Assembly: GCF_041435055.1 (NCBI RefSeq)
Contig: NZ_CP108002.1
Location: 496,001-560,000 of the forward strand
Length of the DNA: 64,000 bases
Source of the DNA: Streptomyces sp. NBC_00341
GTDB taxonomy: Bacteria; Actinomycetota; Actinomycetes; Streptomycetales; Streptomycetaceae
Reading direction: 5' to 3'
Positions 7,497 to 64,000 of the stretch are shown in pieces. The stretch's first letter is position 1. Each line of letters opens with the position of its first letter. The position numbers and the translations under genes are program-made. Below the pieces are notes generated by a model. The model was given only the letters and a program-made list of their open reading frames with translations, was not told the origin of the DNA and made no database searches.

Positions 7497-8330
7497 ATGA
7501 ACCGGCGTCGTCCTCCCCGCTCGGCCAGTGCCGAGGAGCTGCTGACCACGCTCCAGCAGCTCACCTCGCGGGCGCGCCGCGAGGTGGAGCTGCACCAGGC
7601 ACGGGTGGAGCTGGCGGAGGCGCTCCAGCGGGAGATGCTGCCCTCGTCGCTGCCCGATCTGCCGGGGCTGCAGACCGCCGCCCGGTACACGCCCGCGCGC
7701 AGCGGTCTGGACATCGGGGGCGACTGGTACGACGGCTTCCTGCTCCCGGACGGTTCGCTGGCGTTCGCCATCGGGGACGTACAGGGGCACGACGTCGAGG
7801 CGGCGGCCTTCATGGGCCAGATCCGGATCGCGATGCGCGCGCTGGCCGTCACCGCGGCCGATCCGGGCGAAGTGGTCCGGCGGACCAATGACCTGCTGCT
7901 GTCCGTGGACTCCGGTCTCCTCGCCACCTGCACCTTCGTCCGGATAGATCCGTTCACCCGGGAGCTCCAGAGCGCCCGTGCGGGACATGTCGCCGCGGTG
8001 TGGGCCACGGCGGACGGGCGGGCGGGCACCACCGAGGACGAGGGCGGTCTGCCGCTCGGGATCCAGGCCGGTGAGGAGTACCCGGTCACCACCCGGCGCC
8101 TCACGACCCCCGGCGCCTTCGTGCTGCTGACCGACGGGGTGATCGAGGGCCCCTCCTACTCGATCGACGAGGGGCTGGACGCCGTGGTGCGGCTGGTGAG
8201 CTCACGGGTCGGCGACGACGCGGACGAGCTGGCCGACGCGATCCTGGGAGCGGCGGAGCGCACCGGGCACGAGGACGACGCCGCCGTACTCGTCGTGCGG
8301 CACGACGCGTTCCCCGCCGCTCCCGGATGA
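7497..8330 (+). CDS. PP2C (RsbU/SpoIIE-type) protein phosphatase
   Basis: 277 residues. A short N-terminal coiled-coil-like helix (ELHQARVELAEALQREMLP) is followed by a complete PPM/RsbU catalytic domain. All metal-binding motifs are intact: GGDWYDGF, GDVQGHD, LTDGVIE and the final EDDAAVLV. It should dephosphorylate a serine on an anti-anti-sigma (STAS) protein in a partner-switching pathway. It lacks an obvious sensor domain of its own, and the MASE1 membrane protein 67 bases downstream on the same strand may belong to the same pathway. ATG 7497 has GGGGAG at the right spacing. Confidence 0.92.
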   Translation: MNRRRPPRSASAEELLTTLQQLTSRARREVELHQARVELAEALQREMLPSSLPDLPGLQTAARYTPARSGLDIGGDWYDGFLLPDGSLAFAIGDVQGHDVEAAAFMGQIRIAMRALAVTAADPGEVVRRTNDLLLSVDSGLLATCTFVRIDPFTRELQSARAGHVAAVWATADGRAGTTEDEGGLPLGIQAGEEYPVTTRRLTTPGAFVLLTDGVIEGPSYSIDEGLDAVVRLVSSRVGDDADELADAILGAAERTGHEDDAAVLVVRHDAFPAAPG

Positions 8331-12604: not shown

Positions 12605-12635
12605 GTGCGGCGGCGGACGCGGGGTACCGGAGGGT

Positions 12636-12675
12636 GCCGGGCGGGCGACGGCGTGACGGTGTCCGCCCGCCCGGC
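12636..12675. terminator. Bidirectional terminator, 12-bp stem
   Basis: GCCGGGCGGGCG pairs perfectly with CGCCCGCCCGGC across a 16-base loop, in the 90-base gap between the convergent priming enzyme and fcl genes. Confidence 0.75.
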
Positions 12676-12694
12676 CGGGCGGGCGGGCCGCCGG

Positions 12695-13678
12695 TCAGAC
12701 CTGGGCGCCCTGCTCCTGGAGCCACCAGGCGTAGGTCGCGGCGATTCCGTCGCGCAGCGCGATCCGCGGCGCGAAGCCGAGGGAGACCAGCCGGGACACG
12801 TCCAGCAGCTTGCGCGGGGTTCCGTCCGGCTTTCCGCTGTCCCATTCGATCCGCCCCTGATAGGACGTCACATCGGCTACGGTCGAGGCGAGTTCACGGA
12901 TCGTCAGGTCCTCGCCGGAGCCGACGTTGACGGGTTCCTCGCCGTCGTAGCGTTCCAGCAGCAGCACACAGGCGGCGGCCAGATCGTCGACGTGCAGGAA
13001 TTCCCGCCGGGGGCTGCCGGAGCCCCAGAGCGTGACGGCCGGAGCCCCGCTGCGCCGTGCCTCGTGGAAGCGGCGGATCAGCGCGGGCAGGACGTGCGAG
13101 GTCTCCAGGTCGAAGTTGTCGCCGGGCCCGTAGAGATTGGTGGGCATGGCGCTGATGTAGGAGGCGCCGTACTGCCGGCGGTAGGACTGGGTCTGCACGA
13201 TCCCGGCGATCTTCGCCAGCGCGTACGCCTCGTTGGTCGGCTCCAGCGGGCCGGTCAGCAGGGCGCTCTCGGGGATGGGCTGCGGGGCGCGCTTGGGGTA
13301 GATGCAGGACGAGCCGAGGAAGAGCAGCCGCCCGACGCCCGCCGCGTGCGCCCCGGCGATCACGCTCAGCTGGATCCGCAGGTTCTCCTCCAGGAACTGC
13401 ACCGGGTAGGTGCTGTTGGCCATGATCCCACCGACCTTGGCGGCGGCCAGCACCACGGCGTCCGGCCGGGCGTCACGCAGAAAGGCCGCGGTGCGCCCGG
13501 CGTCGCACAGGTCCAGGCGGTCGCGGCCACGAGTGACCACCTCGTGGCCTTCGGCGGTGAGGCGGCGCACCACCGCAGAGCCCACCAGACCTCGGTGGCC
13601 GGCGACGAACACCCGGGCGGCGGGCCGTAGCAGGGACGGGACGGATTCCTGGGAAGGGCCGGGGAGATCAGTCGTCAT
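12695..13678 (-). CDS. fcl: GDP-L-fucose synthase
   Basis: Epimerises and reduces GDP-4-keto-6-deoxymannose to GDP-L-fucose with NADPH. 327 residues of the extended SDR fold: [12 protein letters not shown] is the nucleotide loop, then AAAKVGGI, the active-site Ser in GSSCIYP, the YALAK catalytic Tyr-Lys pair, [13 protein letters not shown], and [17 protein letters not shown], which is diagnostic for WcaG/Fcl. It lies divergent from gmd with 112 bases between them, so both enzymes of the GDP-fucose branch are together. This points to fucose or a related 6-deoxyhexose in the exopolysaccharide. The start is the ATG at 13678. Confidence 0.95.
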
Positions 13679-47920: not shown

Positions 47921-50900
47921 TCACATCCGGTTCACGTAGTCCTCCAGGGTCCTGCCGCGCAGCCGCTTCACCGGGTCGGTGACGTGCTCCGACATGGTGT
48001 TGTGCTGAAGGTAGTTCTGCACCACCCAGTGCAGGTCCCGGTCGTCGACCGTGCCGTCGTGGTCGATGTCGGCGGCACGGTTCGCGGTGCCGCGGGCTTC
48101 GTACACGGCGGCGGCGTCGCGGACGTCGATGACATCGTCGCCGTTGACGTCACCGGCGACCAGGGCGGCCACCGAGGAGCCCCCGGTGCCGGCCACGGGC
48201 CCGTATCCGCGCAGGCCCAGGTCGATCTCCTCCGACCAGGCGAAGTGGCCGGGGACCCTGACCTCGAACCGGTAGGGCTTCTCCGCGGGAGGCAGACCGG
48301 AGGCCGAGACCCTGGCGCCCGCGTCGACCGGCAGGGTTCGCCGGGTGCCGTCCGGTGCGGTCAGTGCCGCGTCGAAGCCGTCGAGGCTGTAGTCGCGGCC
48401 GGTGTCGTATCCGTAGTCCTCGGTCAGCAGTGCCTCGGCCGCGGGCCGTGCGCCGAAGGTGGACTCCGGGTTCAGCATCCGGACCGAGCCGTAGAACTGG
48501 ATGTTCAGCGGCACCTTGGCGCCCGCCGTGTCGACGGCGTACGTCGTGCCGGTGTTCAGCCCGGCCGACGTGGTCCAGTGCTCCCCCGTCACCTCGTACG
48601 TCACCTTCAGCAGCGGCATCGATTCGCCGGTCAGCCCGGCGGTGTCGGAGACGTCGAACGAGACGGTGCTGTACGACGACGCCCCGTCGGACACGTCGGT
48701 CCGGCTGATCGCGGACGGGCCGTGGGCCGACAGCTCGGCGGTCGGCTCGACACCGACGAGCCGCACGTTGCGGTCGTCGTAGCGGATCTGGGAGGTGAAG
48801 GTCTTCCAGTGGTCGAGGTCGTGCGCGGTGAGGGTGTAGGTGACGCGGTCCCCGGCGCGCGCCGCCGGTGCGCCGGCCGTGCCGACGACGTACGGCGTCC
48901 CCTCCTTGATGAGGTTGAGCACGCGTACGTCCCCGATGTTGCCGGCCGCGTCGGTGGGCCACAGCTTGAGGTAGGTGGTCGGCGGGCCCGCGCTGATCGG
49001 GACCTGGAGGTCCACCTTGCCCCGCGCGTCGGCGTTGACGTGCCCGGTGGGTGAGTTGGGGCTGTAGGTGGAGTAAAGGAGCTGGTTGTCCTGCTGGCCG
49101 ATGTCGAGCCCGGCGTCGTGGATCGCGTCGCTCTCCCCGTCACGCAGGGTGCCGGAGACGGCGAACGACGTCGCGTCGGACGGGCGTTGGACGACCACGG
49201 GGCGGGACGGGTCCCAGCCGCCGTAGGCGTCCTCGTAGACCGGCGGGTGGGAGTCCACGTAGATGTCACGCAGTTCCGTGTCGGTGCCGCCGTGGGCGTC
49301 GGTGCCCACGATCCGCAGCTTGTAGTGGCCGTCCGCTGCCCACCGGCCGCGCGGGTCGACCGGTGTGGCGGCCCGTCCGGTCAGCGGGTGGTACCAGCCG
49401 CCGACCGTCACCGGGCCGTACAGGACGCCCTCGGTGAGACCCACGGTGCTGACGCCCCCGATGTAGCCGAGGTCCTTGCCGCGGGCGTCGGCGAGGAACA
49501 CGTCGACGCTGCGCAACTGCCCGGCCATTCGCAGGTCGAAGGTGGCCGCCCCGCCGCCGGCGGAACCGGCGTCCGAGAACTGGTTGGTCGACATCACCGG
49601 CTTCGTCATGTCGATCTCCTCGAAGCCCGACTTGGCCACGCGCAGCCCGAACGGCACTCGCAGCGCGTGCGACTGCCCGCCCCGGACCGGTGTGAGGGTG
49701 AGGAAACCCTCGTAGTGGCCGGCCGGAGCACCGGCGGGCACCCGCAGGGTGGTGCGCACGGTCGTCGTGCCACGGGGCTTCGCGGTGACCCGGTCATCGG
49801 TGCGCAGGCTGATGCGGGCGGCGCGGGCATCGCCGGAGGCACCGTTGCCCCGGGTGAACTCCGCGCTCACGGCGTAACTCTCCTTGGAGCGGCTGTCGTT
49901 GATGAGGCTCATCCGGTGCTCGGTCTCCATGGCCCGGCCCAGTGGCAGCGTGCCGAGGTCGAGGGCGCCGGTGCGGTGGCCGATCTCGCTCTGCGTGCCG
50001 TCGAGGCCGAGGTACGGGGTGCGGGCCCGCACCTGGAGGCGGGCCGTGGCGTGCACCGCTGAGTACGGGGCGACGGCCCCTGCCCCGGCGTCGAAGACGC
50101 TGACCCTGCCGGGCAGCGGGCGGGCGGTGTTCATCAGCGCCGTCTTGATGTCGTCGGGCGTGAGCCGGGGGTCGTGCTGGAGCATCAGTGCCGCGGCTCC
50201 GGCGATGTACGGCGAGGCCATGGAGGTGCCGCTCAGCCGGGCGTACGCGTAGGTGTAGTCCCCGGTCTCCGGGTCGACGACGTCCGACGGGACGGAGGAG
50301 AGCACGCTGACACCGGGGGCGGTGATCTCCGGCTTGATGGTGCCGGTGCCGTACGCCGGACCGCGTGAGCTGAAGTCGGCCAGTGAGCCGTCGCCGAGGC
50401 GGAACGTCCCGGCCGCGGTGAACGTGAGCCGGGCGGAGCCGTCCGCGGCCGCGGCCGTCAGCGCGGCGCCGTCGGCGGCGGTGAGCGAGAACGCCGGGAC
50501 GTAGGACGGGCTCTCACCGATGTAGGAGGGGATGTGTCCCTCGGCCTCGTTGTCGTTGACGAGGAGGACGGCCGCGGCGCCCTCGGACTTCGCGCGCCGC
50601 ACCTTCTCGTCGAGGGTGATCCCGCCTCGGCGCACCAGGACCGCCTTGCCGGTCACGTCCTTGCCGGTGTAGCCGGCGGCGGTCCCGGTGCCGGCGTCGG
50701 CCACCTGGTAGCTGCCGGAGGCCAGCTTGTCGAGCGCGTCGCCGAACGGCTGGGCGAGCAGCCGCCCCTGGCCCGTGGTGCCGCCGGCGTCCAGGGTGTA
50801 CGCGGGCAGGGTCATCGGCTCGTCGTGCGCGCCGACGGTCAGCGGCAGCGCGGCGGCTCCCGGGCTGCCGAGGGTGTTCGTGCCCGGTCCGCTGTTGCCG

Positions 50901-52024
50901 GCGGCGATCACCGTGGTGACGCCGTCGAGAACGAGGTTGTCGGCGGCTATGGACGCCGGGCTGAGCGGGTCGTTGACCGCCGCGCCGAGCGACATGTTGA
51001 CGACGTCCACGCCGTCGCCGGCGGCCCGGTCCATCGCGGCGATGATGTCGCTGGTGCGGCCGCTGCCGTACGGGCCCAGCACCCGGTAGGCGTACACGGA
51101 CGCGCCGGGGGCGACACCGTGCGCGGCGCGTTCCGTGGACGCGGCGCCGCGCCCCGCGATGATTCCGGCGACGTGGGTGCCGTGCTCGGTGTAGTACGCC
51201 GAGCCCTGGCTGGTCTCGGCCGCGCCGGACGCCTTCCAGTCGGCGTACGTCGTCTCCATGGGGTCGGAGTCGTCGTCGACGAAGTCGTACCCGCCCGCGT
51301 AGGCGGCCTCGATGTCGGGGTGGTGGTAGTCGATGCCGGTGTCGATGATGCCGACCTTGACGCCCTTGCCGGTGATGCCCTCGTCGTGCAGCCGGGTGAC
51401 GTCGTCGTCGCTCTGTTCCGGGGCTCCGGACGCGGCGGCGCCGGCCGGCTCGCGCTGTGCGAGCGCCTTCACCGTGGTGTCCGGCCATACGGCGGTGACC
51501 TGGTCGTTGTCCAGGAGGGCGGCCACCCGGTTGCCCGGCAGTCTCAGGCTCACCCCGTCGAAGCTGTGGGTGAAACTGCGTCCCGGCTTCGGCGCGGGCG
51601 TCTTCTTCGCCGTCTTCGCGCCGTCGGGCCGCGCGAACATGCCCTCCAGAGCGGTGCGGAACTTCTGGTGGGCCTTCGTCACCGCGTCGCGGGCCTCCGC
51701 GTCGCTGACGGTGCGGCCTTCGGCCGCTGCCAGCAGCCGGGCGGTCCGGGCGGGCGGTGTGCTCAGCTGGACGATCACGTCGACCGGCTCGGAGCTGCGC
51801 AGCGCGGCCTTGTCGGTGAGGTGCAGGCCGCCCAGGTCCAGGTCGGCCATGTGGTGCAGGGCCTGGAGCTCCTGGCCGTCGAGGGAGGTGAGGAGGCCGT
51901 CGGCGCTCGGCGTCGCGGCCGGGGAGGGCGGCGCCGCGGCGGCGGGTGCGGTGGCCGCCAGGGTGGCGAGGACGGTTGCCGCCGCAGCCATCGCTAGGCG
52001 CCTGCGCCCCGGGACTTGACTCAT
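47921..52024 (-). CDS. Secreted subtilase with cohesin-like and dockerin-like domains
   Basis: 1367 residues. Signal peptide (TVLATLAATAPAAAA), an I9-like prodomain (VDVIVQLSTPP... to 190), and a S8 catalytic domain with Asp228 (GIIDTGID), His281 (EHGTHVAGI), the oxyanion Asn in AAGNSGPG and Ser601 (GTSMASPYIAG). A PA-type insert (about 435-530) splits the catalytic domain. Ig-like modules follow. Residues about 1048-1155 look like a cohesin (GDRVTYTLTAHDLDHW, VSFDVSDTAGLTG), and about 1288-1341 carry two dockerin-type EF-hand repeats (GDVNGDDVIDVRDAAAVY; DIDHDGTVDDRDLHWVV). GGAG precedes ATG 52024. Confidence 0.9.
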   Translation of the reverse strand: MSQVPGRRRLAMAAAATVLATLAATAPAAAAPPSPAATPSADGLLTSLDGQELQALHHMADLDLGGLHLTDKAALRSSEPVDVIVQLSTPPARTARLLAAAEGRTVSDAEARDAVTKAHQKFRTALEGMFARPDGAKTAKKTPAPKPGRSFTHSFDGVSLRLPGNRVAALLDNDQVTAVWPDTTVKALAQREPAGAAASGAPEQSDDDVTRLHDEGITGKGVKVGIIDTGIDYHHPDIEAAYAGGYDFVDDDSDPMETTYADWKASGAAETSQGSAYYTEHGTHVAGIIAGRGAASTERAAHGVAPGASVYAYRVLGPYGSGRTSDIIAAMDRAAGDGVDVVNMSLGAAVNDPLSPASIAADNLVLDGVTTVIAAGNSGPGTNTLGSPGAAALPLTVGAHDEPMTLPAYTLDAGGTTGQGRLLAQPFGDALDKLASGSYQVADAGTGTAAGYTGKDVTGKAVLVRRGGITLDEKVRRAKSEGAAAVLLVNDNEAEGHIPSYIGESPSYVPAFSLTAADGAALTAAAADGSARLTFTAAGTFRLGDGSLADFSSRGPAYGTGTIKPEITAPGVSVLSSVPSDVVDPETGDYTYAYARLSGTSMASPYIAGAAALMLQHDPRLTPDDIKTALMNTARPLPGRVSVFDAGAGAVAPYSAVHATARLQVRARTPYLGLDGTQSEIGHRTGALDLGTLPLGRAMETEHRMSLINDSRSKESYAVSAEFTRGNGASGDARAARISLRTDDRVTAKPRGTTTVRTTLRVPAGAPAGHYEGFLTLTPVRGGQSHALRVPFGLRVAKSGFEEIDMTKPVMSTNQFSDAGSAGGGAATFDLRMAGQLRSVDVFLADARGKDLGYIGGVSTVGLTEGVLYGPVTVGGWYHPLTGRAATPVDPRGRWAADGHYKLRIVGTDAHGGTDTELRDIYVDSHPPVYEDAYGGWDPSRPVVVQRPSDATSFAVSGTLRDGESDAIHDAGLDIGQQDNQLLYSTYSPNSPTGHVNADARGKVDLQVPISAGPPTTYLKLWPTDAAGNIGDVRVLNLIKEGTPYVVGTAGAPAARAGDRVTYTLTAHDLDHWKTFTSQIRYDDRNVRLVGVEPTAELSAHGPSAISRTDVSDGASSYSTVSFDVSDTAGLTGESMPLLKVTYEVTGEHWTTSAGLNTGTTYAVDTAGAKVPLNIQFYGSVRMLNPESTFGARPAAEALLTEDYGYDTGRDYSLDGFDAALTAPDGTRRTLPVDAGARVSASGLPPAEKPYRFEVRVPGHFAWSEEIDLGLRGYGPVAGTGGSSVAALVAGDVNGDDVIDVRDAAAVYEARGTANRAADIDHDGTVDDRDLHWVVQNYLQHNTMSEHVTDPVKRLRGRTLEDYVNRM

Positions 52025-52389
52025 GATTCGTGGCTCCGCTCTGGGCAGTGACGGTGCCTCGACTCGCCTTGTGGGCGACGGAGAGGCGGGCATCGCATGA
52101 TCATGAGCCCGGAGCCGGGCGAGCGGAAGCGCATACCGGTGGCGAGATCGTGCCTGTCGCCAAGTCGCCATCTTTCCGGGCGTGTTCGGCCGCATCTCTC
52201 CGGGTGTGTCCGGCCGCACGGCCCGTGGCGACTTCACGTCGTGTCACACATCCGCCAGCCGTTCCGGCTGTGTCACCCGCCGCCCGCTCGGTAGACCGTG
52301 CCCATGACCCTTCGCCGGTGCCCGGGTGCCGGCGAAGTCACCGCCGTGGTCCCGGTCCTGCCGAGGCCCCGCCATGCGAAAGGGCACCC
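52025..52389. other. 365-base divergent intergenic region between two subtilase genes
   Basis: No gene supported. It must hold both promoters. The clearest feature is a 24-base tandem duplication (listed separately); I could not assign -10 or -35 elements. Confidence 0.5.
52169..52216. repeat. 24-base tandem duplication
   Basis: Copies at 52169-52192 and 52193-52216 differ at three positions. Each has the core TCCGGG-GTGT-CGGCCG. It could be paired regulator sites between the divergent subtilase promoters or a chance duplication. Confidence 0.75.
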
Positions 52390-55300
52390 ATGTCCCGCCC
52401 CATCACCCGCCGCAGACGGCGGTTCACCGCCGTCGTCCTTGCGGCCGGCCTGACCGGCTCGCTGCTGGGCCTGTCGGCGCTGCCCGCCCAGGCCGCCGAT
52501 GTGCCGCACCCGCTGGGCACGGCCGTGCCCGACGTGCCGAAGAAGGTACTCACGGACCGGCGCGACAAGCTGGGTTCGCACGACCGTACGCTGCTGCAGA
52601 AGGCCGAGAGCAGGAAGAGCGGGACGGTCACCGTCCTGCTGGCCACCGCCGAGGGTGACACCGGGACGCTGCGTGCCGAGGTCACCGGCCTCGGCGGTCA
52701 CGTCGTCAGGGCGGACGACAAGCTCGGCTACGTCCGCGCCACCGTACCCACCGGGAAGGTCACCGCGCTCGCCGCGCTCAAGTCGGTCCGCGCCGTCGAC
52801 CTGAGCGAGACGTTCAAGATCCCCGATCCGTCGCCGGTCACCGGCCAGGACAGGAAGAAGGCCCAGGCCAAGGGCAAGGGCACGAGCAAGGGAAAGGACA
52901 AGGGCAAGGGCAAGGGCAACGGCTCCCCGGACTCCGGCCGGCCGGCAGCGCCCGGCCGCAGCACCCCGGCGGACAACCCCTATCTGCCCGTCGCAGAGAC
53001 CGGAGCCACCGGCTTCACCGCGGACCACCGCTCCTGGGACGGCCGGGGCGTCACGGTCGGCATCCTGGACACCGGGGTCGATCCGTCCCATCCGGCACTG
53101 CGCAACACCACGACCGGAAAGCCGAAGATCCAGGACTGGGTGACGGCGACCGACCCGGTCACCGACGCCGATCCGACGTGGCTGGAGATGCGTCTCAAGG
53201 TGACCGTCACCGACGGCACCTTCCGGTACGGCGGCGTGGACTACAAGGCCCCCGACGGTTCCTACGAGTTCCAGCTCTTCGACGAGGAGGGCACCTGGGG
53301 CAGCGAGCTCGCCGGTGACGTGAACCGGGACGGCGACCACAGCGACCGGTTCGGTGTCCTGTACCGGAAGTCGGACCACCGGGTCTGGGTCGATGCCGAT
53401 CTGGACCGGACGTTCGGTGCCTCCGATATCGTCCAGCCGTACGCCGACAGCGGCACCTGGGGCACCTTCGGCAAGGACGACCCGGACACGGCGGTCTTCG
53501 AGTCCATGCCGTTCACCGTCGAGTACCGCGATGACGTGGACCTCTCCGCGCGTGGCGGCAGCAGCGCCGGCACGAGCGCCGACTTCGTGAACATCGGCAT
53601 CGTCTCCGGTGCGCACGCCACCCATGTCGCCGGCATCACCGCGGGCAACGGGCTGTTCGGCGGGAAGATGAACGGCGCCGCGCCGGGCGCGCGGATCGTC
53701 TCCGAGCGGGTCTGCCTGTTCGCCTCCGGCTGCACCTCCTACGCCCTTGCCGAGGGCATGATCGATGTCGTCGTGAACAAGGGCGCGGACGTCGTCAACC
53801 TGTCGATCGGCGGGCTGTCCGCGCTCAACGACGGCGACAACGTCCGCGCGGTCCTGTACAACCGCCTCATCGACGAGTACGGCGTGCAGATCGTGTCGTC
53901 GGCCGGCAACGACGGACCGGGCATGAACACCGTCTCCGACCCGGCGACCTCCGACAAGGTGATCGCGGTGGGCGCCTCCGTCAGCAAGGACACCTGGTGG
54001 GCCGATTACGGCTCCCGGGTGAAGGCCCGTCAGTCGCTGTTCCCGTTCTCCGCGCGCGGACCGCGCGAGGACGGCGGGATGAAGCCGGAGCTCCTGGCCC
54101 CCGGCGCCGCCGTGTCGTCCATACCGACGTGGCTGCCCGGCGAGAGCGTCCCCGACACCGGCTACGAACTGCCCGCCGGCTACGGCATGTACAACGGTAC
54201 GTCGATGGCGTCGCCGCAGGCCGCCGGAGCCGTCGCGCTGCTGCTGTCGGCGGCGGCCGACACCCGGGTGAAGGTGTCACCGGCCGCGCTGCGCACCGCG
54301 CTGACCAGTTCCGCGACGCACCTGGAGGACCAGCCCGCCTACGCCCAGGGAGCCGGCCTGATCTCCGTCCCTGCGGCGTGGAAGCTGCTGGCGAAGAGGG
54401 GCCGGCCGACCTCGTACGACGTCAGGGCTCCGGTGTGCGGCGTACTCGCCGGGCTGCTGGCGACCCCGAAGTCCGGGGCCGGGGTGTACAACCGCTGTGC
54501 TCCGGGCGAGGGCGGGCAGGAGGTCCGCCGGGCGAAGGACTACACGGTGGAACTGACCCGCACCGGATCCGGCAGCGGCCGGGCCGAGCTGTCGTGGCTC
54601 GGCAACGACGGAACGTTCCGCGCGCCGCGCTCGGTGAGTCTGGACCGGGGCGGAAAGGCCACGATCAGCATCCGGGCGCAGTCCGGGACGGCGGGTGCGC
54701 ACTCCGCGCTGCTGCGCGTCGACGATCCGGCCACCCCCGGCGTCGACCGGCTGGTGCCGGTCACCGTCGTGGCCGCCGCCGCGCCCGCGAAGCCGTCGTA
54801 CGCCGTGTCCGCTAAGGGCTCGGTGGACCGTAACGGCACCCGGTCGGTCTTCGTCGCGGTACCCGAGGGCGCGGCGGCGCTGAAGGTGGACCTGTCCGGC
54901 GTCGCCGGTGACAGCCAGACCCGCTTCCTGGCGGTCGACCCGCAGGGCAAGCCGGTGGAGGACACCGCCGCCGACCGCTGCTACACACATTTCTCGGACA
55001 CCGAGGAGTGTGCTGCCGGCTCGCGTACCTACGAGCAGCCGATGCCCGGCGTCTGGGAGTTCGAGACGGAGGCCCGGCGCACGTCACCCGTCCTGGAGAA
55101 CCCCTACCGGCTGACCGCCACCGTGCTGGGGGCCGCGCTGGACCCGGCGTCCTCCGTGATCGACGAGGCGGCGGTCCACACGCCCGCCGAGAAGTCGTTC
55201 ACTGCCGTCAACCGGTTCGCCCCGGTGACCGCTCACGCGGTGGGCGGCTCCCTGGGCGCCCTGTCGCAGGAGCACCCGACCGTCAGCGACCAGGACATGA

Positions 55301-56718
55301 CGGGCAAGCAGATCGCGGTGCCGAGGGACGCGACGCGGCTCGAGGTGTCGATGGGCAACGCCTCCGACAAGAACGCCGATCTGGATCTGTACCTGGTGGC
55401 CCAGTCGGGGGCGCTGGTCGCCTCCTCCACCAACGGCGGTTCGCGCGAGTCGCTCTCCCTGGACGACCCCGCCCCCGGCTACTACCTGCTGTACATCGCC
55501 GGTACGGACGTGCCGTCCGGCAGCACCGCGTTCGACATCCAGGACACGATGTTCTCGACGTCGCTCGGCTCGGTGACCGTGGACCGGAGGAAGCCGGTGC
55601 GCCTGGACCCGGGTGAGTCGACGAAGGTGACGGGCCGTCTGACGGCGGACACGGCGCCTCCGGCGGGCCGCCGCCTGGTGGGCCGGTTCTCGCTGGCCAC
55701 GGACGCGGGCACCACGCTGGGCAGCGCCGACGTACTGCTCGGCAAGGTCACCAGCCCGCACGCGGACGTCACCGCGTCGTTCGGCCCGGCGATCGCCTTC
55801 GGCCTGGACGACACCGGGCGGGTCGCCGGCTCCCAGCAGGTCTCCGGCATCGGCCGGCCGATCCGCTGGGACCCGTCGAACGGCGTCACCCTGCTCGACA
55901 ACGGGGGCGCCCACGACGGCCACGTCCTCGGCCAGAGCGCGACCGCGGGGTACGCCACCGGGCAGCTGACGCCGACCGGGGGCACCCGGGCGGCCCTGTG
56001 GGACGCGGACGGCACCCTCACCACGCTGCCACTGCCCGACTGGGCCGCCTACCGCTTCGCCCGGGGGTTCGCCGTCAACGACGCGGGAACCGTCGCGGGC
56101 AATGCCACCGGCAACGTCACCGACCCGAAGACCGGGCGCAGCCTGGAGGTGAACGAGGGCTTCCTCTGGAACGCGAAGGACGGTTTCCGCAAGCTGCCGC
56201 ACCTCACGGAGAGCCGGAACCTGACGGAGCCCCTCGCCATCAACAACTCCGGTGTGGTCGTGGGCCATTCGTCCAAGGACGGCAGGCGTCGCGCCGTGCG
56301 GTGGGCCGCCGACGGAACGATCACCGATCTGGGCACGCTGCCCGGCATGGCCGACAGCTACGCCGCGGGCGTCAACACCTCGGGAACGATCGTCGGCACC
56401 AGCGGTGACGACGCGTTCGTGATCAAGCCGGGCGGCACCATGACCCGGCTGCCCGACTTCGGGTTCAGCGCCACAGCGATGGAGGTGAACGACGCGGGCT
56501 GGATCACGGGCAGCGCGGAGACGGCGCCCGATACGAACACGGCGGTCGTCTGGGACCCGGAGGGCCGCATGTACGACCTGAGCGCGATGATCGCGTCCTC
56601 GCGCTGGGTGCCGACCGACGGCATCGGCATCAACAACCGGGGCGAGGTGGCGTTCTACGCCATGGACACGGAGAACGGAGGCTCGAACAAGGTCGTCCTG
56701 GCGAAGCTGCCCGGCTGA
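52390..56718 (+). CDS. Secreted subtilase with HAF-repeat propeller
   Basis: 1442 residues. Signal peptide (LPAQAADVP), I9-like prodomain, a Lys/Gly repeat linker (about 156-178), then the S8 domain: Asp227 (GILDTGVD), His409 (HATHVAGI), Asn in SSAGNDGPG and Ser605 (GTSMASPQAAG). Asp and His are 182 residues apart, against about 32 in subtilisin, like pyrolysin/TPP II relatives; the insert has Ca-site-like DVNRDGDHSDRFG. Ig-like and pre-peptidase-like modules follow, then about 300 residues of HAF repeats (AFGLDDTGRVAG; FAVNDAGTVAG; LAINNSGVVVG; GVNTSGTIVG). ATG 52390 has AAAGGG upstream. Confidence 0.9.
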   Translation: MSRPITRRRRRFTAVVLAAGLTGSLLGLSALPAQAADVPHPLGTAVPDVPKKVLTDRRDKLGSHDRTLLQKAESRKSGTVTVLLATAEGDTGTLRAEVTGLGGHVVRADDKLGYVRATVPTGKVTALAALKSVRAVDLSETFKIPDPSPVTGQDRKKAQAKGKGTSKGKDKGKGKGNGSPDSGRPAAPGRSTPADNPYLPVAETGATGFTADHRSWDGRGVTVGILDTGVDPSHPALRNTTTGKPKIQDWVTATDPVTDADPTWLEMRLKVTVTDGTFRYGGVDYKAPDGSYEFQLFDEEGTWGSELAGDVNRDGDHSDRFGVLYRKSDHRVWVDADLDRTFGASDIVQPYADSGTWGTFGKDDPDTAVFESMPFTVEYRDDVDLSARGGSSAGTSADFVNIGIVSGAHATHVAGITAGNGLFGGKMNGAAPGARIVSERVCLFASGCTSYALAEGMIDVVVNKGADVVNLSIGGLSALNDGDNVRAVLYNRLIDEYGVQIVSSAGNDGPGMNTVSDPATSDKVIAVGASVSKDTWWADYGSRVKARQSLFPFSARGPREDGGMKPELLAPGAAVSSIPTWLPGESVPDTGYELPAGYGMYNGTSMASPQAAGAVALLLSAAADTRVKVSPAALRTALTSSATHLEDQPAYAQGAGLISVPAAWKLLAKRGRPTSYDVRAPVCGVLAGLLATPKSGAGVYNRCAPGEGGQEVRRAKDYTVELTRTGSGSGRAELSWLGNDGTFRAPRSVSLDRGGKATISIRAQSGTAGAHSALLRVDDPATPGVDRLVPVTVVAAAAPAKPSYAVSAKGSVDRNGTRSVFVAVPEGAAALKVDLSGVAGDSQTRFLAVDPQGKPVEDTAADRCYTHFSDTEECAAGSRTYEQPMPGVWEFETEARRTSPVLENPYRLTATVLGAALDPASSVIDEAAVHTPAEKSFTAVNRFAPVTAHAVGGSLGALSQEHPTVSDQDMTGKQIAVPRDATRLEVSMGNASDKNADLDLYLVAQSGALVASSTNGGSRESLSLDDPAPGYYLLYIAGTDVPSGSTAFDIQDTMFSTSLGSVTVDRRKPVRLDPGESTKVTGRLTADTAPPAGRRLVGRFSLATDAGTTLGSADVLLGKVTSPHADVTASFGPAIAFGLDDTGRVAGSQQVSGIGRPIRWDPSNGVTLLDNGGAHDGHVLGQSATAGYATGQLTPTGGTRAALWDADGTLTTLPLPDWAAYRFARGFAVNDAGTVAGNATGNVTDPKTGRSLEVNEGFLWNAKDGFRKLPHLTESRNLTEPLAINNSGVVVGHSSKDGRRRAVRWAADGTITDLGTLPGMADSYAAGVNTSGTIVGTSGDDAFVIKPGGTMTRLPDFGFSATAMEVNDAGWITGSAETAPDTNTAVVWDPEGRMYDLSAMIASSRWVPTDGIGINNRGEVAFYAMDTENGGSNKVVLAKLPG

Positions 56719-56759
56719 CCCGGCCTCCTGGTCCGACGGACCATCCGCCCGGCGGGGCG

Positions 56760-56801
56760 AAGGGCACCTCCGGGCCGCGGCCCGCGGCCGGGGGTGCCCT
56801 T
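56760..56801 (+). terminator. Terminator after the HAF subtilase gene
   Basis: AAGGGCACC pairs with GGTGCCCTT (9 bp) and GC-rich inner sequence can extend the stem, 42 bases after the stop. Confidence 0.65.
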
Positions 56802-56888
56802 GCCGTTGCGGCGCGTCCTGCCGCGCCCGTCCCCTGGTACTCCGGGGCACGGACCGGGCCAGCAGCCCCGATGCGCCCACGCCGCGAA

Positions 56889-56904
56889 ATTGGTCTAATC
56901 CAAA
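56889..56904. promoter_or_regulatory. DasR box (dre) 1 / chitinase direct repeat
   Basis: ATTGGTCTAATCCAAA fits the DasR-responsive element (core TGGTCTAGACCA) and the 12-base direct repeats of Streptomyces chitinase promoters. 140 bases upstream of the chitinase start. Confidence 0.8.
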
Positions 56905-56940
56905 TTCCGCCGAGTCCCTGCCGCATCCCTTGACGCCCCT

Positions 56941-56956
56941 ATTGGTCCAGTCCAAT
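56941..56956. promoter_or_regulatory. DasR box (dre) 2 / chitinase direct repeat
   Basis: ATTGGTCCAGTCCAAT, a near-perfect palindrome, starts 52 bases after box 1. Two boxes on nearly the same helical face fit tight GlcNAc-responsive DasR repression. Confidence 0.82.
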
Positions 56957-57028
56957 CTCTTGGGCGTGCCGCTGGATGCGGCATGAACACATCCCCTGGT
57001 GCGGTCCGTCCCCCACGGAGGTTGCATG

Positions 57029-59275
<2,247 letters not shown>

Positions 59276-59293
59276 GCAGCCGTCGTCCACGCG

Positions 59294-59329
59294 CCGCGGG
59301 CCGCCCGGGAAGTCCCGGGTGGCCCGTGG
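59294..59329. terminator. Bidirectional terminator after the chitinase gene
   Basis: A 16-bp stem with two G-T wobbles (59294-59309 with 59314-59329) around an AAGT loop, between convergent genes. Confidence 0.8.
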
Positions 59330-59357
59330 CCGGTGGTCCTGTCCGTCGACCGGTGGT

Positions 59358-60032
59358 TCAGCCCTCCACCGCTGTGGTGGTGAAGCGGTCGCCGCACACC
59401 CGGAGGCCGGAGGTCCGCAGGGTGAGCGCCTCCTTGGAGCCGGGCGGGTAGACCCTGAGGTAGTCGGGCTCGCGCCAGCAGCCGGAACCCTTGATCCCCT
59501 GGTTCAGGGTGTGCAGCGTGACGGCTGCCGTCCGGCCGGCGTCGATCACGGTCCGCTCCCCCGGCGCGCCCTCGCGCCCGGCCGGGACGCCGATCACGCT
59601 GCCGTCGCGCCTGATCATCGAGACACCCGGAAACCCTTGCAGGGTGCAGGAGTGCCCGGACTTGTTGGCGAACGTGAGCCGGTAGTGGATCTGGCCCGCA
59701 CCCGCGTCGGCGGCGCCCAGGCTCATCCCCAGGGTCTTGGTCGTGCAACGTCGCGCTTCCGGAGCACCGGCGGCCGCTGCCGGCGGGGAGGACGACGGAT
59801 CGGCCTGGTGATACGCCGCCGGGGCACTGCCGGAAGCGGAGCCGCTCGCGGCCGGCTGCCCGGCCGAGGCCGCGGTCCCGCCGCAGCCGGCCGTGACGAG
59901 GGCGATCGACGCGGCCGCGACCGGGACGAGAAGGCGGGGCCGGCGCGTACCGGCCCGCCGAGCCGTCCTCCTCTCCCGCGACCGGAGCGAATGCTCGGAC
60001 GGTGATGGGGTGGTTCGAAGAAGTGAGCCCAT
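59358..60032 (-). CDS. DUF4232-like putative lipoprotein
   Basis: 224 residues. A basic leader (RSRERRTARRAGTRRPR), a hydrophobic run and LVTAGC, which is a lipobox, so it is probably a lipoprotein with an unusually long N-region. A Ser/Ala/Pro-rich spacer leads to a DUF4232-like beta domain: GQIHYRLTFANKSGHSCTLQGFPGVSM, VIDAGRTAAVTLHTLNQG and LRVCGDRFTTTA, with four Cys likely paired. Function is unknown; many Streptomyces have several copies. The start at 60032 has GAGAGG very close, so it may lie a few codons further in. Confidence 0.82.
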   Translation of the reverse strand: MGSLLRTTPSPSEHSLRSRERRTARRAGTRRPRLLVPVAAASIALVTAGCGGTAASAGQPAASGSASGSAPAAYHQADPSSSPPAAAAGAPEARRCTTKTLGMSLGAADAGAGQIHYRLTFANKSGHSCTLQGFPGVSMIRRDGSVIGVPAGREGAPGERTVIDAGRTAAVTLHTLNQGIKGSGCWREPDYLRVYPPGSKEALTLRTSGLRVCGDRFTTTAVEG

Positions 60033-60144
60033 ACCTCTCGCCTGCTCAATTTCTCGCGGTCTGCACCTGCCGGGGGAATTCTTCCGCTCGCGCGCCCCCG
60101 GACGGTCGCGCCCCGGGACCGTCACACGCCCGCACGCCCGCTCA

Positions 60145-61704
60145 TCACCCGCGCCGCACCACGCCCTGACCGTCGAAGGCCGTCTCGCTCCGCGAGCCGA
60201 GGTCCAGCCACAGTCCGGTGAACCGGTCGAGCAGCCCGGCCGCCGCCGTCACATCGTCCGTCAGCGGCCGGTCGGCCAGCTCCGCGTCGAGCACCGCGTC
60301 CGCCAGCGCGAAGGCCCGGCCGACGGGCAGTTCCGGGTCGAGGCGCATGTCACGCTGTCGCAACGCCCTTACGGCCGCGACGAGTTCGCAGCCCACGACC
60401 AGCCGGTACGCCTCGCACGCGCGCAGCGTCTGCCGCGCCGCCAACGAGGCGAAGCTGGCCTGCTCCTCGACCCCGCGCGAGAGCACCGCATGGCCGAGCG
60501 AGGCGGGCGCGGAGAAGGCGCGCAGATCTCCGAGCGCCGCCCCGGCCGCGTACTCGAGGATCATCACGCCCGACGCGGCCAGCGCACCGTCCGCGAGGAA
60601 CGGCCGCAGCCGGGTGAAGGCCGGTTCGTTCAGCGTGGACAGGCGCGAGGTCGACAGCCGCGCCACCTGCGTCACCGCCAGCCTGAAGTGGTCCAGGGCA
60701 AGCGCGAGTTGGGCGATGTAGAAGCCGCCGTGGTGGTAGGCCGCCATATCGTCCGCCGAGATCAGCGGGTTCTCCGCCGCCGCGTTGATCTCGACCGTGA
60801 GGACGTCTTCGAGCGCGTCCGCCGCATCGTGCGCGGGCCCGTGGATCTGGGGCACGCAGCGGAAGCCGTACGGGTCCTGGATCCGGCCGAGCGGGGGCGT
60901 GGGGCGGTCGGCGGCGCCGAGCAGCAGCCGCATCCGCTCGGCGACCGCGTACGAACCGGCGTGCCGCCGCGCCTCGTGCACGGGCAGCGCGAACGCCTCG
61001 TACGAACCGTCGGTCGCCATCAGGGACAGGGCCGCCACCACCTGTGTGGCCGCGATCAGGCCGCGCAGCTCGTGCAGGGCGAGGGCAGACTGGCCGAGGG
61101 TGAGCGCGTTGCTGCTGATCAGGGCGAGGGCGTCGTTGTTGTCGAGGGGCTGCGGGGCGGGGGCCGCCCCGGAGCCCTGCCAGGGGTGTTCGCCGGCCAG
61201 CGCGAGGCCCATCTGCGCGAGCGCGGCGATGTCGCCGGTGCCGACCGAGCCGAATTCGTTGACCTTCGGATACGCGCCCGTCCCCAGCGCCTCGCAGAGG
61301 GCCGTGACGACGGTGGGACGCAGACCGGCGCCGCCCGCGAGCAGCTGGTTGGCCCGGACGGCGAGCATGGCGCGGACCTGCCGCGCGGGCAGCTCCTCAC
61401 CGATCGATCCGGCGTGGCTGCGCAGCAGCCGTAGACCGTGGTCGGCGGCCGCCCCCGTCGGTACGGACTCATTCCGGTTGGCGCCCACACCGGTGGAGCG
61501 ACCGTAGACGCGACCCCATGAGGCAATCTCCCGGGCAGCGTTCCACGAGGTCTCCACACGCTTCATACCGTCCGCCCCCAGAACGGGTTTTACGGTGGAT
61601 TCGGCCATGCGTACGACATCTGCGACCATCAGTCCGCGGCCGTCGAGGGTGACCACCGAATCACTGCCGAGAGCCACCCCGTCCGCGATATGAGACGACA
61701 TCAC
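60145..61704 (-). CDS. HAL/PAL-fold lyase without the MIO-forming Ser (ergothionase-like?)
   Basis: 519 residues with the aromatic ammonia-lyase fold: VYGRSTGVGANR (the Tyr loop), LLRSHAGSIGE (Ser-His pair), DPYGFRCVPQIHGPAHDA and NAAAENPLIS. The tripeptide that cyclises to MIO, Ala-Ser-Gly in FGSVGASGD, is Gly155-Thr156-Gly157 in FGSVGTGD, so no normal MIO can form. Elimination without MIO is known for ergothionase, which expels trimethylamine. A quaternary-amine-type ABC importer is divergent from it. So a betaine-type amino acid is a plausible substrate (inference); HutH is unlikely. GTG 61704 follows GAGGAGG. Confidence 0.8.
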   Translation of the reverse strand: MMSSHIADGVALGSDSVVTLDGRGLMVADVVRMAESTVKPVLGADGMKRVETSWNAAREIASWGRVYGRSTGVGANRNESVPTGAAADHGLRLLRSHAGSIGEELPARQVRAMLAVRANQLLAGGAGLRPTVVTALCEALGTGAYPKVNEFGSVGTGDIAALAQMGLALAGEHPWQGSGAAPAPQPLDNNDALALISSNALTLGQSALALHELRGLIAATQVVAALSLMATDGSYEAFALPVHEARRHAGSYAVAERMRLLLGAADRPTPPLGRIQDPYGFRCVPQIHGPAHDAADALEDVLTVEINAAAENPLISADDMAAYHHGGFYIAQLALALDHFRLAVTQVARLSTSRLSTLNEPAFTRLRPFLADGALAASGVMILEYAAGAALGDLRAFSAPASLGHAVLSRGVEEQASFASLAARQTLRACEAYRLVVGCELVAAVRALRQRDMRLDPELPVGRAFALADAVLDAELADRPLTDDVTAAAGLLDRFTGLWLDLGSRSETAFDGQGVVRRG

Positions 61705-61852
61705 GCGCAATTCCTCCTCAACCGGAAGCTTCGTCTTGCCCTACGGCCACTTGTCACCAGGGATTTGCCTCTGAACGGCGACTGACTATTGACAATCTAT
61801 TCAGACACCAAGAACTCTGCATGATGATATGCAGCCGGGCAAGGGACTCCAC
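61705..61852. promoter_or_regulatory. Divergent promoter region, lyase / ABC importer
   Basis: 148 bases, AT-richer than its neighbours at 61755-61830. TTGACA at 61789-61794 could be a -35 for the importer; ATTGACAAT (61788-61796) is a palindrome and CTATT occurs on both its sides, which could be an operator. No -10 is certain. Confidence 0.45.
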
Positions 61853-62896
61853 ATGATCCAATTCGACACGGTCCACAAGCGCTTCCCGAACGGCACAACC
61901 GCGGTGCACGACCTCACGCTTGAGATGCCGGAAGGCGGCGTGACCGTCCTCGTCGGATCTTCCGGTTGCGGCAAGACAACGACACTCCGCATGGTCAACC
62001 GGATGGTCGATCCGACCTCCGGGACGATCAGGGTCAACGGCAAGGACGTCCTGGAGCAGGACGCCGCCGAGCTGCGCCGCTCCATCGGCTACGTGATCCA
62101 GCAGTCCGGGCTCTTCCCCCACCGCACGGTCCTCGACAACATCGCGACCGTGCCGCTGCTGCTCGGCTGGGGCCGGAGGAAGGCGCGGGCGCGGGCGGCG
62201 GAACTCCTGGAGACGGTGGGCCTCTCCGCCGACGCCGCCAAGCGCTACCCGCACCAGCTCTCCGGCGGCCAGCAGCAGCGGGTCGGCGTGGCGCGGGCGC
62301 TCGCCGCGGACCCGCCGGTACTCCTGATGGACGAGCCGTTCGGCGCCGTCGACCCTGTGGTGCGCACCCAGCTGCAGGATGAACTCCTGCGTCTTCAGCG
62401 AGAGTTGAACAAGACCATCGTCTTCGTCACGCACGACATAGACGAGGCCGTCCGGCTCGGGGACCGGATAGCCGTCTTCCGTACCGGTGGCCACCTCGTC
62501 CAGTACGCCGGCCCCGCCGAGCTGCTCGCCCGCCCCGCGGACGCGTTCGTCGCGGACTTCCTCGGCGCCGAGCGCGGTCTGAAGCTGCTGTCGCTGACCG
62601 CACTGGCGGAGGTCGCCCAGGGGCCCGCCCCCAAGGGCACCCGCTGGCAGCTGACCCTCGACGCCGGCCGCAAGCCGCTGGCCTGGCGCGACACCGAGAG
62701 CGAGGCCGAGGCCCCGGTCCGGCCGCTGCGCGACACGGACTCGCTCCTCTCGGCCCTCAACGAATCGATCGCCGCGCCGAGCGGACTGGTGGCCCGGGTC
62801 GACGCGGAGGGCGCCCTCACGGGTGTCACGTCCCGCGAGGACATCCACGACCACGCGGGACGCGTCCACGGCGCGGCGAGCACGGTGGGCGCATGA
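61853..62896 (+). CDS. Quaternary-amine-type ABC importer, ATPase subunit (OpuCA/EgtV-like)
   Basis: 347 residues. ABC ATPase domain 1-240: Walker [10 protein letters not shown] (Lys41), Q loop [14 protein letters not shown], signature LSGGQQQR, Walker [12 protein letters not shown] and H loop [19 protein letters not shown] and [16 protein letters not shown] are typical of glycine betaine/choline (OpuC/OpuBA/ProV) ATPases. The C-terminal extension resembles a degenerate CBS region ([21 protein letters not shown]). AAGGGA lies before ATG 61853. The permease start overlaps its stop (ATGA). Substrate: betaine-like amine by family; possibly ergothioneine by context. Confidence 0.9.
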
Positions 62897-63543
62897 GCAT
62901 CGACTGGTCGTGGATATCCGACCACTCCGGTGATCTCACCACCCTGGCCGTCTCCCACCTCCAGGCCGCCCTCACCGCCGTACTCCTGGGCCTGGTCGTG
63001 TCGCTCCCCCTGGCCGTCCTCGCGCACCGGGTACGCCGGCTGCGCGGACTGCTCCTCGGGCTGTCGAACATCCTGTTCACCATTCCGTCCATCGCCGTCT
63101 TCGTACTCCTCCTGCCGGTCAGCGGGCTCACCCGCACCACCACCGTCATCGGCCTGACGATCTACACCCTCGTGGTGCTCCTGCGGAACACCGTCGAGGG
63201 CCTGGACTCCGTACCGGCCAGGACCAAGGAAGCCGCGAAGGCCATGGGTACCAGGCCGCTGCGCACCCTGCTCACCGTCGAACTCCCCCTCGCCCTCCCG
63301 GTGATCATGGCGGGCGTGCGGATCGCGACGGTCATGGCCATCTCGCTGGTCTCCGTGGCCACGTACATCGGGGACGGCGGACTGGGCCAGCTCTTCACGG
63401 ACGGCTTCCAGCGCAACTTCCCCACCCCCGTCATCGTCGGCGTCGCCCTGACCCTGCTCCTCGCACTCGTCGCGGACGCGGCGCTCGTCGCCCTCCAGTA
63501 CGTGCTGACTCCATGGACCCGCCGGCAGAAGCAGGGGGCCTGA
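62893..63543 (+). CDS. Quaternary-amine-type ABC importer, permease 1 (OpuCB-like)
   Basis: 216 residues, five or six membrane helices, BPD_transp_1 fold. The EAA loop reads RTKEAAKAMGTRPLRTLLTVELPLALPVIMAG, the site that docks on the ATPase. IPSIAVFVLLLP and TYIGDGGLGQLFTDGF are typical of OpuB/OpuC permeases. It begins in the ATPase stop codon and ends six bases before the second permease, so the three genes form one operon. A periplasmic-type binding protein, which such importers need, is expected just beyond the right edge. Confidence 0.9.
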   Translation: MSIDWSWISDHSGDLTTLAVSHLQAALTAVLLGLVVSLPLAVLAHRVRRLRGLLLGLSNILFTIPSIAVFVLLLPVSGLTRTTTVIGLTIYTLVVLLRNTVEGLDSVPARTKEAAKAMGTRPLRTLLTVELPLALPVIMAGVRIATVMAISLVSVATYIGDGGLGQLFTDGFQRNFPTPVIVGVALTLLLALVADAALVALQYVLTPWTRRQKQGA

Positions 63544-63549
63544 GCGCTC

Positions 63550-64000
63550 ATGTACGAACTCTTCAAGAACCTCGGCGCCTGGCTGGTCAGCGGTGAGCAG
63601 TGGACCGGTCCCGACGGAATCGGGCACCGCCTCGCGGAACACCTCCAGTACTCGCTGCTCGCCACCCTGATCGCCGCCGCCATCGCGCTGCCGGTCGGCC
63701 TGCTCATCGGGCACACCGGGCGCGGCGCCTTCCTCGCGATCAACCTCTCCAGCTTCGGGCGCGCACTTCCCACGGTCGGGCTCGTCGTGCTGGTCTTCCT
63801 CGCCAGCGGCCTCTCCATGTGGCCGGTCTACATCGCCCTCGTGGCGCTCGCCGTGCCCTCCATCGTCACCAACACCTACGCCGGGATGACCGCCGTCGAC
63901 CCGGAGGTCCGGGACGCCGCGCGCGGCCAGGGGATGCGTGGGCACCAGGTCCTCTTCCAGGTAGAGCTGCCCCTCGCGATGCCGCTGATCATGACCGGGC
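63550..64000 (+). CDS. Quaternary-amine-type ABC importer, permease 2 (OpuCD-like), 5' part
   Basis: 150 codons are visible; the gene runs off the window. It starts MYELFKNLGAWL, has the HLQYSLLATLIAAAIALPVG helix, SFGRALPTVGLVVLVFL and the EAA-like docking loop VRDAARGQGMRGHQVLFQVELPLAMPLI. So it is the second permease of the importer. Completion and the binding-protein gene cannot be judged from here. Confidence 0.88.
   Translation, partial: MYELFKNLGAWLVSGEQWTGPDGIGHRLAEHLQYSLLATLIAAAIALPVGLLIGHTGRGAFLAINLSSFGRALPTVGLVVLVFLASGLSMWPVYIALVALAVPSIVTNTYAGMTAVDPEVRDAARGQGMRGHQVLFQVELPLAMPLIMTG

Follow-up and report, generated by a model that had tools for sequence, protein, structure and literature searches.

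The described systems closest to the locus analyzed here, a lyase gene of Streptomyces sp. NBC_00341 and the ATP-binding cassette (ABC) importer operon transcribed divergently from it, are two enzymes of the histidine ammonia-lyase (HAL) fold, namely the histidine ammonia-lyase HutH (e.g. Pseudomonas putida; PDB: 1b8f, 1gkm) and the trimethylamine-lyase ergothionase of Treponema denticola (PDB: 6s7j, 6s7q), together with the EgtU, OpuC and ProX importers. The lyase gene lies near the right-hand end of a 64,000-nucleotide stretch of contig NZ_CP108002.1 (positions 496,001 to 560,000 of the forward strand), hereafter the window. Its product shares the fold family of both enzymes. It has the Tyr loop and the imidazole determinants of HutH and is predicted to form the same product, urocanate, but lacks the methylidene-imidazolone (MIO) electrophile and Asn195. 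With ergothionase it shares Ser195, His83, Glu414 and the absence of MIO through deletion of one residue, and trimethylamine is its predicted leaving group too; yet it belongs to a separate clade and differs at position 386. We propose that this protein is probably an MIO-free hercynine trimethylamine-lyase that delivers urocanate to the Hut pathway. Trimethylamine elimination on the HAL fold is already known from ergothionase, and hercynine as the substrate would be the new part.

The open reading frame (ORF) of the lyase spans 60145-61710 on the minus strand, beginning with a TTG at 61710; comparison with relatives places the likely start at the ATG at 61701, for a protein of 518 residues. 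It is matched by the Pfam Lyase_aromatic model (PF00221) at 365 bits, whereas the curated hutH model TIGR01225 scores it at 282.4 bits, below the cut-off of 539.15, and the four family members scanned all fell short of the cut-off of every named NCBIfam model. The solved structures closest to it by sequence are the HAL of Thermoplasma acidophilum, the histidine ammonia-lyase of Trypanosoma cruzi and the T. denticola ergothionase, in keeping with the view of an earlier note on this DNA that the lyase and ergothionase have a common fold, which the alignment also bears out. An AlphaFold model, although of low confidence (mean predicted local distance difference test score, pLDDT, 45.6), still retrieved aminomutase, HAL and ergothionase folds, and we take it to corroborate the fold only. 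The gene and its active-site landmarks are:

60145..61701, minus strand: MIO-less HAL-fold lyase, predicted hercynine trimethylamine-lyase (Pfam, alignment, tree and reading of the letters)
61483..61506, minus strand: Tyr loop YGRSTGVG, equivalent of HAL Tyr53 (alignment and reading)
61408..61422, minus strand: RSHAG with the Ser-His pair, equivalent of HAL His83 (alignment and reading)
61231..61242, minus strand: GTGD, shortened MIO loop without Ala-Ser-Gly (alignment and reading)
61105..61116, minus strand: SSNA, with Ser at the HAL Asn195 position (alignment)
60856..60879, minus strand: QDPYGFRC, running into RCVPQIHG (reading)
60550..60564, minus strand: MILEY, Glu385 and Tyr386 in P. putida HAL numbering (alignment)
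60463..60477, minus strand: RGVEE, with the equivalent of HAL Glu414 (alignment and reading)

From established knowledge of the HAL family we presume that the Tyr loop supplies the base, that the His83 position confers imidazole selectivity and that the Glu414 position contacts the imidazole. To examine conservation at these sites we used a joint alignment of 42 family rows (many from closely related Streptomyces), five ergothionase-type and six HutH rows, which also takes in an atypical paralogue and two rows of tyrosine aminomutase and leaves out the phenylalanine (PAL) and tyrosine ammonia-lyases. The motifs reported earlier, FGSVGTGD at 61231-61254 as well as the Tyr loop, Ser-His pair and RCVPQIHG of HutH, are exactly where they had been placed, as direct reading shows. 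The same note had the MIO tripeptide Ala-Ser-Gly exchanged for Gly-Thr-Gly; the loss of the tripeptide stands, but alignment to HutH reveals a one-residue deletion in place of the exchange. All 42 family rows lack one residue of the HutH loop (GSVG-TGD against GSVGASGD), the same deletion being seen in ergothionase, while the HutH of the same genome (C1:5652568) has GSLGCSGD, with Cys-Ser-Gly, the other MIO tripeptide of HutH enzymes. The Thr of the shortened loop is found in 40 of the 42 rows and replaced by Ile in two, and the following Gly is Ala in four. A wider scan of named genomes gave at least 539 stretches, from which 80 loci, all from Streptomyces, were kept (below, the 80 named loci); every one of them contains GSVGTGD[IL]. 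The observation is thus confirmed as real and not due to chance, since the loop, Ser195 and the divergent operon recur in many relatives.

The equivalents of Tyr53, His83, Gln277, Arg283, Phe329 and Glu414 are retained in 42 of 42 family rows, so that His83 and Glu414, the imidazole determinants of HutH, are both in place. Ser82 is kept in 40 rows and Tyr280 is variable (Tyr, Phe, Leu or Val). Asn195 is replaced by Ser throughout the family and in all five ergothionase-type rows. Glu385 is likewise universal in the family, but is not diagnostic because one HutH row and two ergothionase-type rows also have it. Position 386 separates the groups: Tyr occupies it in 39 of the 42 family rows, His, Asn and Trp in one each and Lys in none, whereas four of the five ergothionase-type rows have Lys, a residue with a catalytic role in ergothionase. 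The matching residue of parsley PAL lines the ring pocket, and by this analogy Lys386 may read the sulfur of ergothioneine in the ergothionase types. The two aminomutase rows combine MIO with Gln at the Glu414 position, neither of which occurs in the lyase.

A maximum-likelihood tree of 38 rows (25 from the lyase family and five of the ergothionase type) put the family on a branch of its own with support of 100/100, the ergothionase types on another with equal support, and HutH and the aminomutases in a third part; five of the rows have an unusual residue make-up. The family therefore falls outside the HutH and aminomutase part, as the earlier note had anticipated, and on account of its separate clade and its lack of MIO we reject an ordinary HutH or an aminomutase. 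The tree is unrooted and its three parts meet at a single point, so MIO may have been lost either once or twice. Members were recovered in 32 of 100 relatives (E 1e-60) and in 16 of 396 genomes from the phylum as a whole (E 1e-100).

Three further MIO-loop variants came to light among the loci collected. On a plasmid of Paracoccus saliphilus (L152, 7911-9599) an MIO-less, ergothionase-type lyase with Lys386, annotated only as an aromatic amino acid ammonia-lyase, lies immediately after a complete hutF-I-H-G-U set and faces genes of a tripartite ATP-independent periplasmic (TRAP) transporter. On pSymA of Sinorhizobium meliloti (L153, 7926-9566) a gene annotated as hutH codes for a protein without MIO and with Ala at position 386, near an annotated dimethylsulfoniopropionate lyase gene and an ABC importer; it may represent a further MIO-less specificity. 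At L165 a second, divergent PF00221-like protein (11379-12785) adjoins the lyase; where the MIO loop would be it reads AGE, and its residue at the His83 position is Arg.

The gene contexts of part of the family point to histidine catabolism. Within about 9 kb of the lyase, the 80 named loci (several on short contigs, and all related by descent) code for an RpiR regulator in 71 cases, an importer ATPase in 63, a binding protein in 61, the urocanate hydratase HutU in 60, an allantoate-amidohydrolase-like protein (AAH) in 50, HutF in 41, an NCS1 permease in 21, HutI in 11, and a dioxygenase, an amidohydrolase-like protein and a LacI regulator in one each. Among 14 loci from outside the genus (L060-L064, L149, L150, L164-L170), importer genes occur at eight, and hut genes adjoin the lyase at four, in a different gene order each time; three of these four also have the importer and one has HutH:

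L060: ATPase, permeases, binding protein, HutU, AAH, HutF and HutI, divergent from the lyase
L150, Arthrobacter plasmid: ATPase, permeases, binding protein, HutU and lyase
L164, all on one strand: RpiR, sodium symporter (PF00474), HutH, ATPase, two permeases, binding protein, lyase, AAH, HutU, HutF and HutI
L165: lyase about 4.6 kb from HutU, AAH and HutF

Assuming a rate of 0.5% per locus, the chance of finding such linkage at four of 14 loci is roughly 6e-7. The most telling locus is L164: its HutH is genuine (631 bits against the cut-off of 539), and with such an enzyme in the same operon the lyase is not a stand-in for HutH but would be a second entry to the pathway. The neighboring HutU is, moreover, the only one in the genomes carrying L164 (G137) and L165 (G212). 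The earlier note had looked to thiourocanate-type hydratases as partners, which the loci scanned do not supply: the hydratases of L039, L060, L150, L164 and L165 and that of the window genome score 841-901 bits with the hutU model (cut-off 375), and none reaches the cut-off for thiourocanate hydratase (930). The window genome has a single HutU-family protein (C1:3389925), a genuine HutU by score, and a family scan of it found no thiourocanate hydratase-like paralogue. It further contains one ordinary HutH and one PF10017 methyltransferase (C1:8133705), a family that we take to be that of EgtD.

The divergent side of the locus is organized as follows:

61702..61852: shared intergenic region, 151 bases from start to start (reading)
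61811..61824, plus strand: conserved box AGAACTCTGCATGA, presumed promoter or operator element (9-mers across loci)
61853..62896, plus strand: ABC ATP-binding protein of the quaternary-amine (ProV/OpuC) type, in an ORF from 61829 (family scan)
62893..63543, plus strand: ABC permease 1, ProW-like (family scan)
63550..64000, plus strand: ABC permease 2, its 3' part past the window and ending at 64269 (family scan)
64266-65195, right of the window: binding protein, Pfam OpuAC, a separate gene (family scan)
65253-66656, right of the window (3254-4657 of L004): NCS1 permease (family scan)

The divergent linkage to a quaternary-amine-type ABC operon, noted previously, is upheld by this arrangement, and the binding protein sought beyond position 64000 is present, which completes an OpuC/ProX-type importer. 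The NCS1 permease that follows it recurs at 21 of the 80 named loci. In a Streptomyces subgroup (L054, L058, L059, L065 and L066) a gene block, c24-c26 and c29, which we would liken to a conservon, separates the permeases from the binding protein-lyase pair; at L058 only the end of this block is visible. On the other side of the lyase, 47921-60125 holds a pair of large, divergently ordered ORFs for subtilisin-like proteases, a glycoside hydrolase family 18 (GH18)-type chitinase-like ORF and a small lipoprotein, names that come from reading the translations alone.

Linkage of lyase and importer is further supported by their intergenic region. The divergent pair is present at 61 of 81 Streptomyces loci (the window and the 80 named loci), its genes 139-175 bases apart, and 9-mers of the box AGAACTCTGCATGA are found at all 61; an alignment of 13 rows shows a second conserved block, TGAATA...TTGTCAA. 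An exact copy of the box occurs only once in the window genome. We also considered it as a mark of a hut regulon and rejected this, as matches with up to two mismatches fell at 10 places in the genome, equal to a reversed control. It was not found at the non-genus loci L060, L150, L164 and L165, nor in the stretches examined around HutH, HutU and the EgtD-family gene. The box consequently speaks only for the divergent pair in Streptomyces. One Streptomyces locus, L096, has two exact copies, at 7845 and 8943.

We compared the pocket of the binding protein with that of EgtUC, whose aromatic cage is given in the passages on ligand contacts of PMC9732360 as F293, Y341, Y419 and Y443, alongside K242; the placement of these numbers on the PDB chain is our own mapping. 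The window protein has Tyr, Asp, Phe and Gln at the four cage positions, and Ala where ProX and Lmo1422 have Lys, so it retains two of the four aromatics and the EgtU-like character earlier ascribed to the importer does not extend to its pocket. Across 31 binding-protein rows (two being the same window protein), Tyr293 and Phe419 are invariant, as are Glu375 and Arg379 of EgtUC; Arg275 and Asp341 are common to 30, in which position 443 is Gln, Glu or Ala. The protein of L164 has the whole cage (Tyr293, Tyr341, Phe419 and Tyr443), and its best matches are engineered acetylcholine and nicotine sensor proteins, followed by Lmo1422, EgtUC and ProX. With the whole cage in L164 alone, a quaternary-amine ligand is well backed by sequence there and only plausible in the window genome. 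The same passages put the affinity of EgtUC for hercynine some 10,000-fold below that for ergothioneine, hence kinship with EgtU by itself says nothing for hercynine.

Some carriers of the lyase have genes that might act upstream of it. A LacI regulator, an amidohydrolase-like protein and a cysteine dioxygenase (CDO)-type thiol dioxygenase are encoded near the lyase at L043, L045, L052, L053, L060, L064, L149 and L105, and more distant CDO-like proteins adjoin it at L062 and L165. In the set of 100 relatives the amidohydrolase-like gene is present in 12 of 32 genomes with the lyase and in none of the 68 others (Fisher 2e-7) and the dioxygenase gene in nine of 32 and again in none of 68 (Fisher 1.5e-5), values inflated by the shared ancestry that they ignore. 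The co-occurrence holds even where the genes are far apart, and three genera are represented among the carriers. Sequence search links the dioxygenase to PDB entries 8qfl-8qfr (~1e-73), which we tentatively take to be the Thermocatellispora ergothioneine dioxygenase; a fold search with its AlphaFold model (mean pLDDT 35.5) gave no match at E 0.001. The amidohydrolase-like protein has no Pfam or NCBIfam match and resembles metal-dependent decarboxylases only marginally (best E 0.001); it may be the second enzyme leading from ergothioneine to hercynine. The Seebeck laboratory is said to have described in 2024 such a route, in which an actinobacterial ergothioneine dioxygenase and then a metal-dependent sulfinate desulfinase reportedly yield hercynine and sulfur dioxide, and which ends at hercynine. 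These enzymes would be possible upstream partners of the lyase.

Taken together, we suggest that the Tyr-loop base would take the beta proton of hercynine (N-alpha-trimethylhistidine), expelling trimethylamine and forming urocanate. The MIO electrophile could have been lost as unneeded, given that trimethylamine leaves far more readily than ammonia. The divergent importer would bring in the betaine, and the urocanate would enter the ordinary Hut pathway through HutU, HutI, HutF and the amidohydrolase. In some relatives the dioxygenase and the amidohydrolase-like protein might first make hercynine from ergothioneine; in the window genome, which has neither, hercynine would come from outside or from the cell's own pool. 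We favor hercynine because it satisfies at once the imidazole-binding, MIO-free active site, the pairing of urocanate hydratase with quaternary-amine import, and the co-occurrence of possible hercynine-making genes. Several points weigh against it, including the inflation of the Fisher values given above. The hut genes of the window genome lie megabases from the lyase (HutU at 3.39 Mb, HutH at 5.65 Mb); none were found at 10 of the 14 non-genus loci, four of these stretches being shorter than 14 kb, or at any of the nine loci (L054, L057-L059, L065, L066 and L171-L173) that come from a divergent Streptomyces subgroup. The dioxygenase and amidohydrolase-like genes are absent from the window genome and near the lyase at only one of the 80 named loci, and the PDB names of 8qfl-8qfr read 'Cysteine dioxygenase'. 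Finally, in 30 of 31 rows two Tyr residues of the cage are replaced in the importer pocket, one by Asp and the other by Gln, Glu or Ala, which leaves the ligand of the importer uncertain.

The earlier proposal of an import-and-eliminate module for ergothioneine, hercynine or a similar betaine seems most probable in its hercynine form. That the lyase is instead an ergothionase, expelling trimethylamine from imported ergothioneine to give thiourocanate, would agree with the shortened loop and Ser195, with the place of the binding protein in the EgtU family by sequence search and with the possible ergothioneine dioxygenase of some carriers, whose identity is unconfirmed. We nevertheless consider it quite unlikely: the 100/100 separation of the clades and the pocket unlike that of EgtUC both speak against it, and the missing Lys386 and the HutU-type hydratases at the loci scanned led us to reject it as the principal explanation. 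An MIO-free lyase could still form urocanate from another histidine derivative (a dimethylated one or a hydroxy acid, for example) or from several imidazole betaines, and the imidazole determinants and hut linkage would fit any such substrate, as would the usual Asp341 and Arg275 of the pocket where EgtUC has Tyr and Thr. This is unlikely too, as the OpuC-type importer and the full cage of L164 point to a trimethylammonium group, and the possible hercynine-making genes to hercynine itself.

Two further alternatives dispense with trimethylamine elimination. Loss of the catalytic electrophile might signify a non-catalytic sensor or degenerate homologue, but the invariance of six active-site positions and the synteny with importer and catabolic genes make this very unlikely. 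Alternatively, the remaining Gly-Thr-Gly could form an MIO-like ring from Thr in an ammonia-lyase, HAL relatives building MIO from a central Ser. Such an enzyme is extremely unlikely; Ile in place of the Thr in two rows is our ground for rejecting a Thr-derived MIO, and Ala for the last Gly in four, the loss of Asn195 and the separate HutH of the window genome, or of the very operon at L164, also count against it.

We found no hercynine lyase among the papers listed by our literature searches, which is weak evidence of novelty, since work in subscription journals could have described one. If our proposal for hercynine is correct, soil bacteria would possess a second, MIO-free entry into histidine catabolism, and a widespread actinobacterial family without a matching named NCBIfam model, judging from the four members scanned, would gain a function. 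It would also supply a step after the reported conversion of ergothioneine to hercynine.

The predicted product, trimethylamine, has a further significance in this genus. It triggers exploratory growth of Streptomyces, according to the relevant passages of PMC5207766, which also mention cutCD and trimethylamine N-oxide (TMAO) reductase homologues of S. venezuelae as unlikely sources of it; the corresponding passages of PMC12211087 and PMC11448094 state that genes for its production in Streptomyces have not been identified. The lyase is a concrete candidate source of this known volatile signal. It is conceivable, if doubtful, that it is the missing source of the long-range trimethylamine signal of Streptomyces, with hercynine or ergothioneine from fungi or from the cell's own pool being imported and cleaved. 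Were this so, eating a fungal metabolite and sending an alkaline 'explore' signal would be one and the same reaction.

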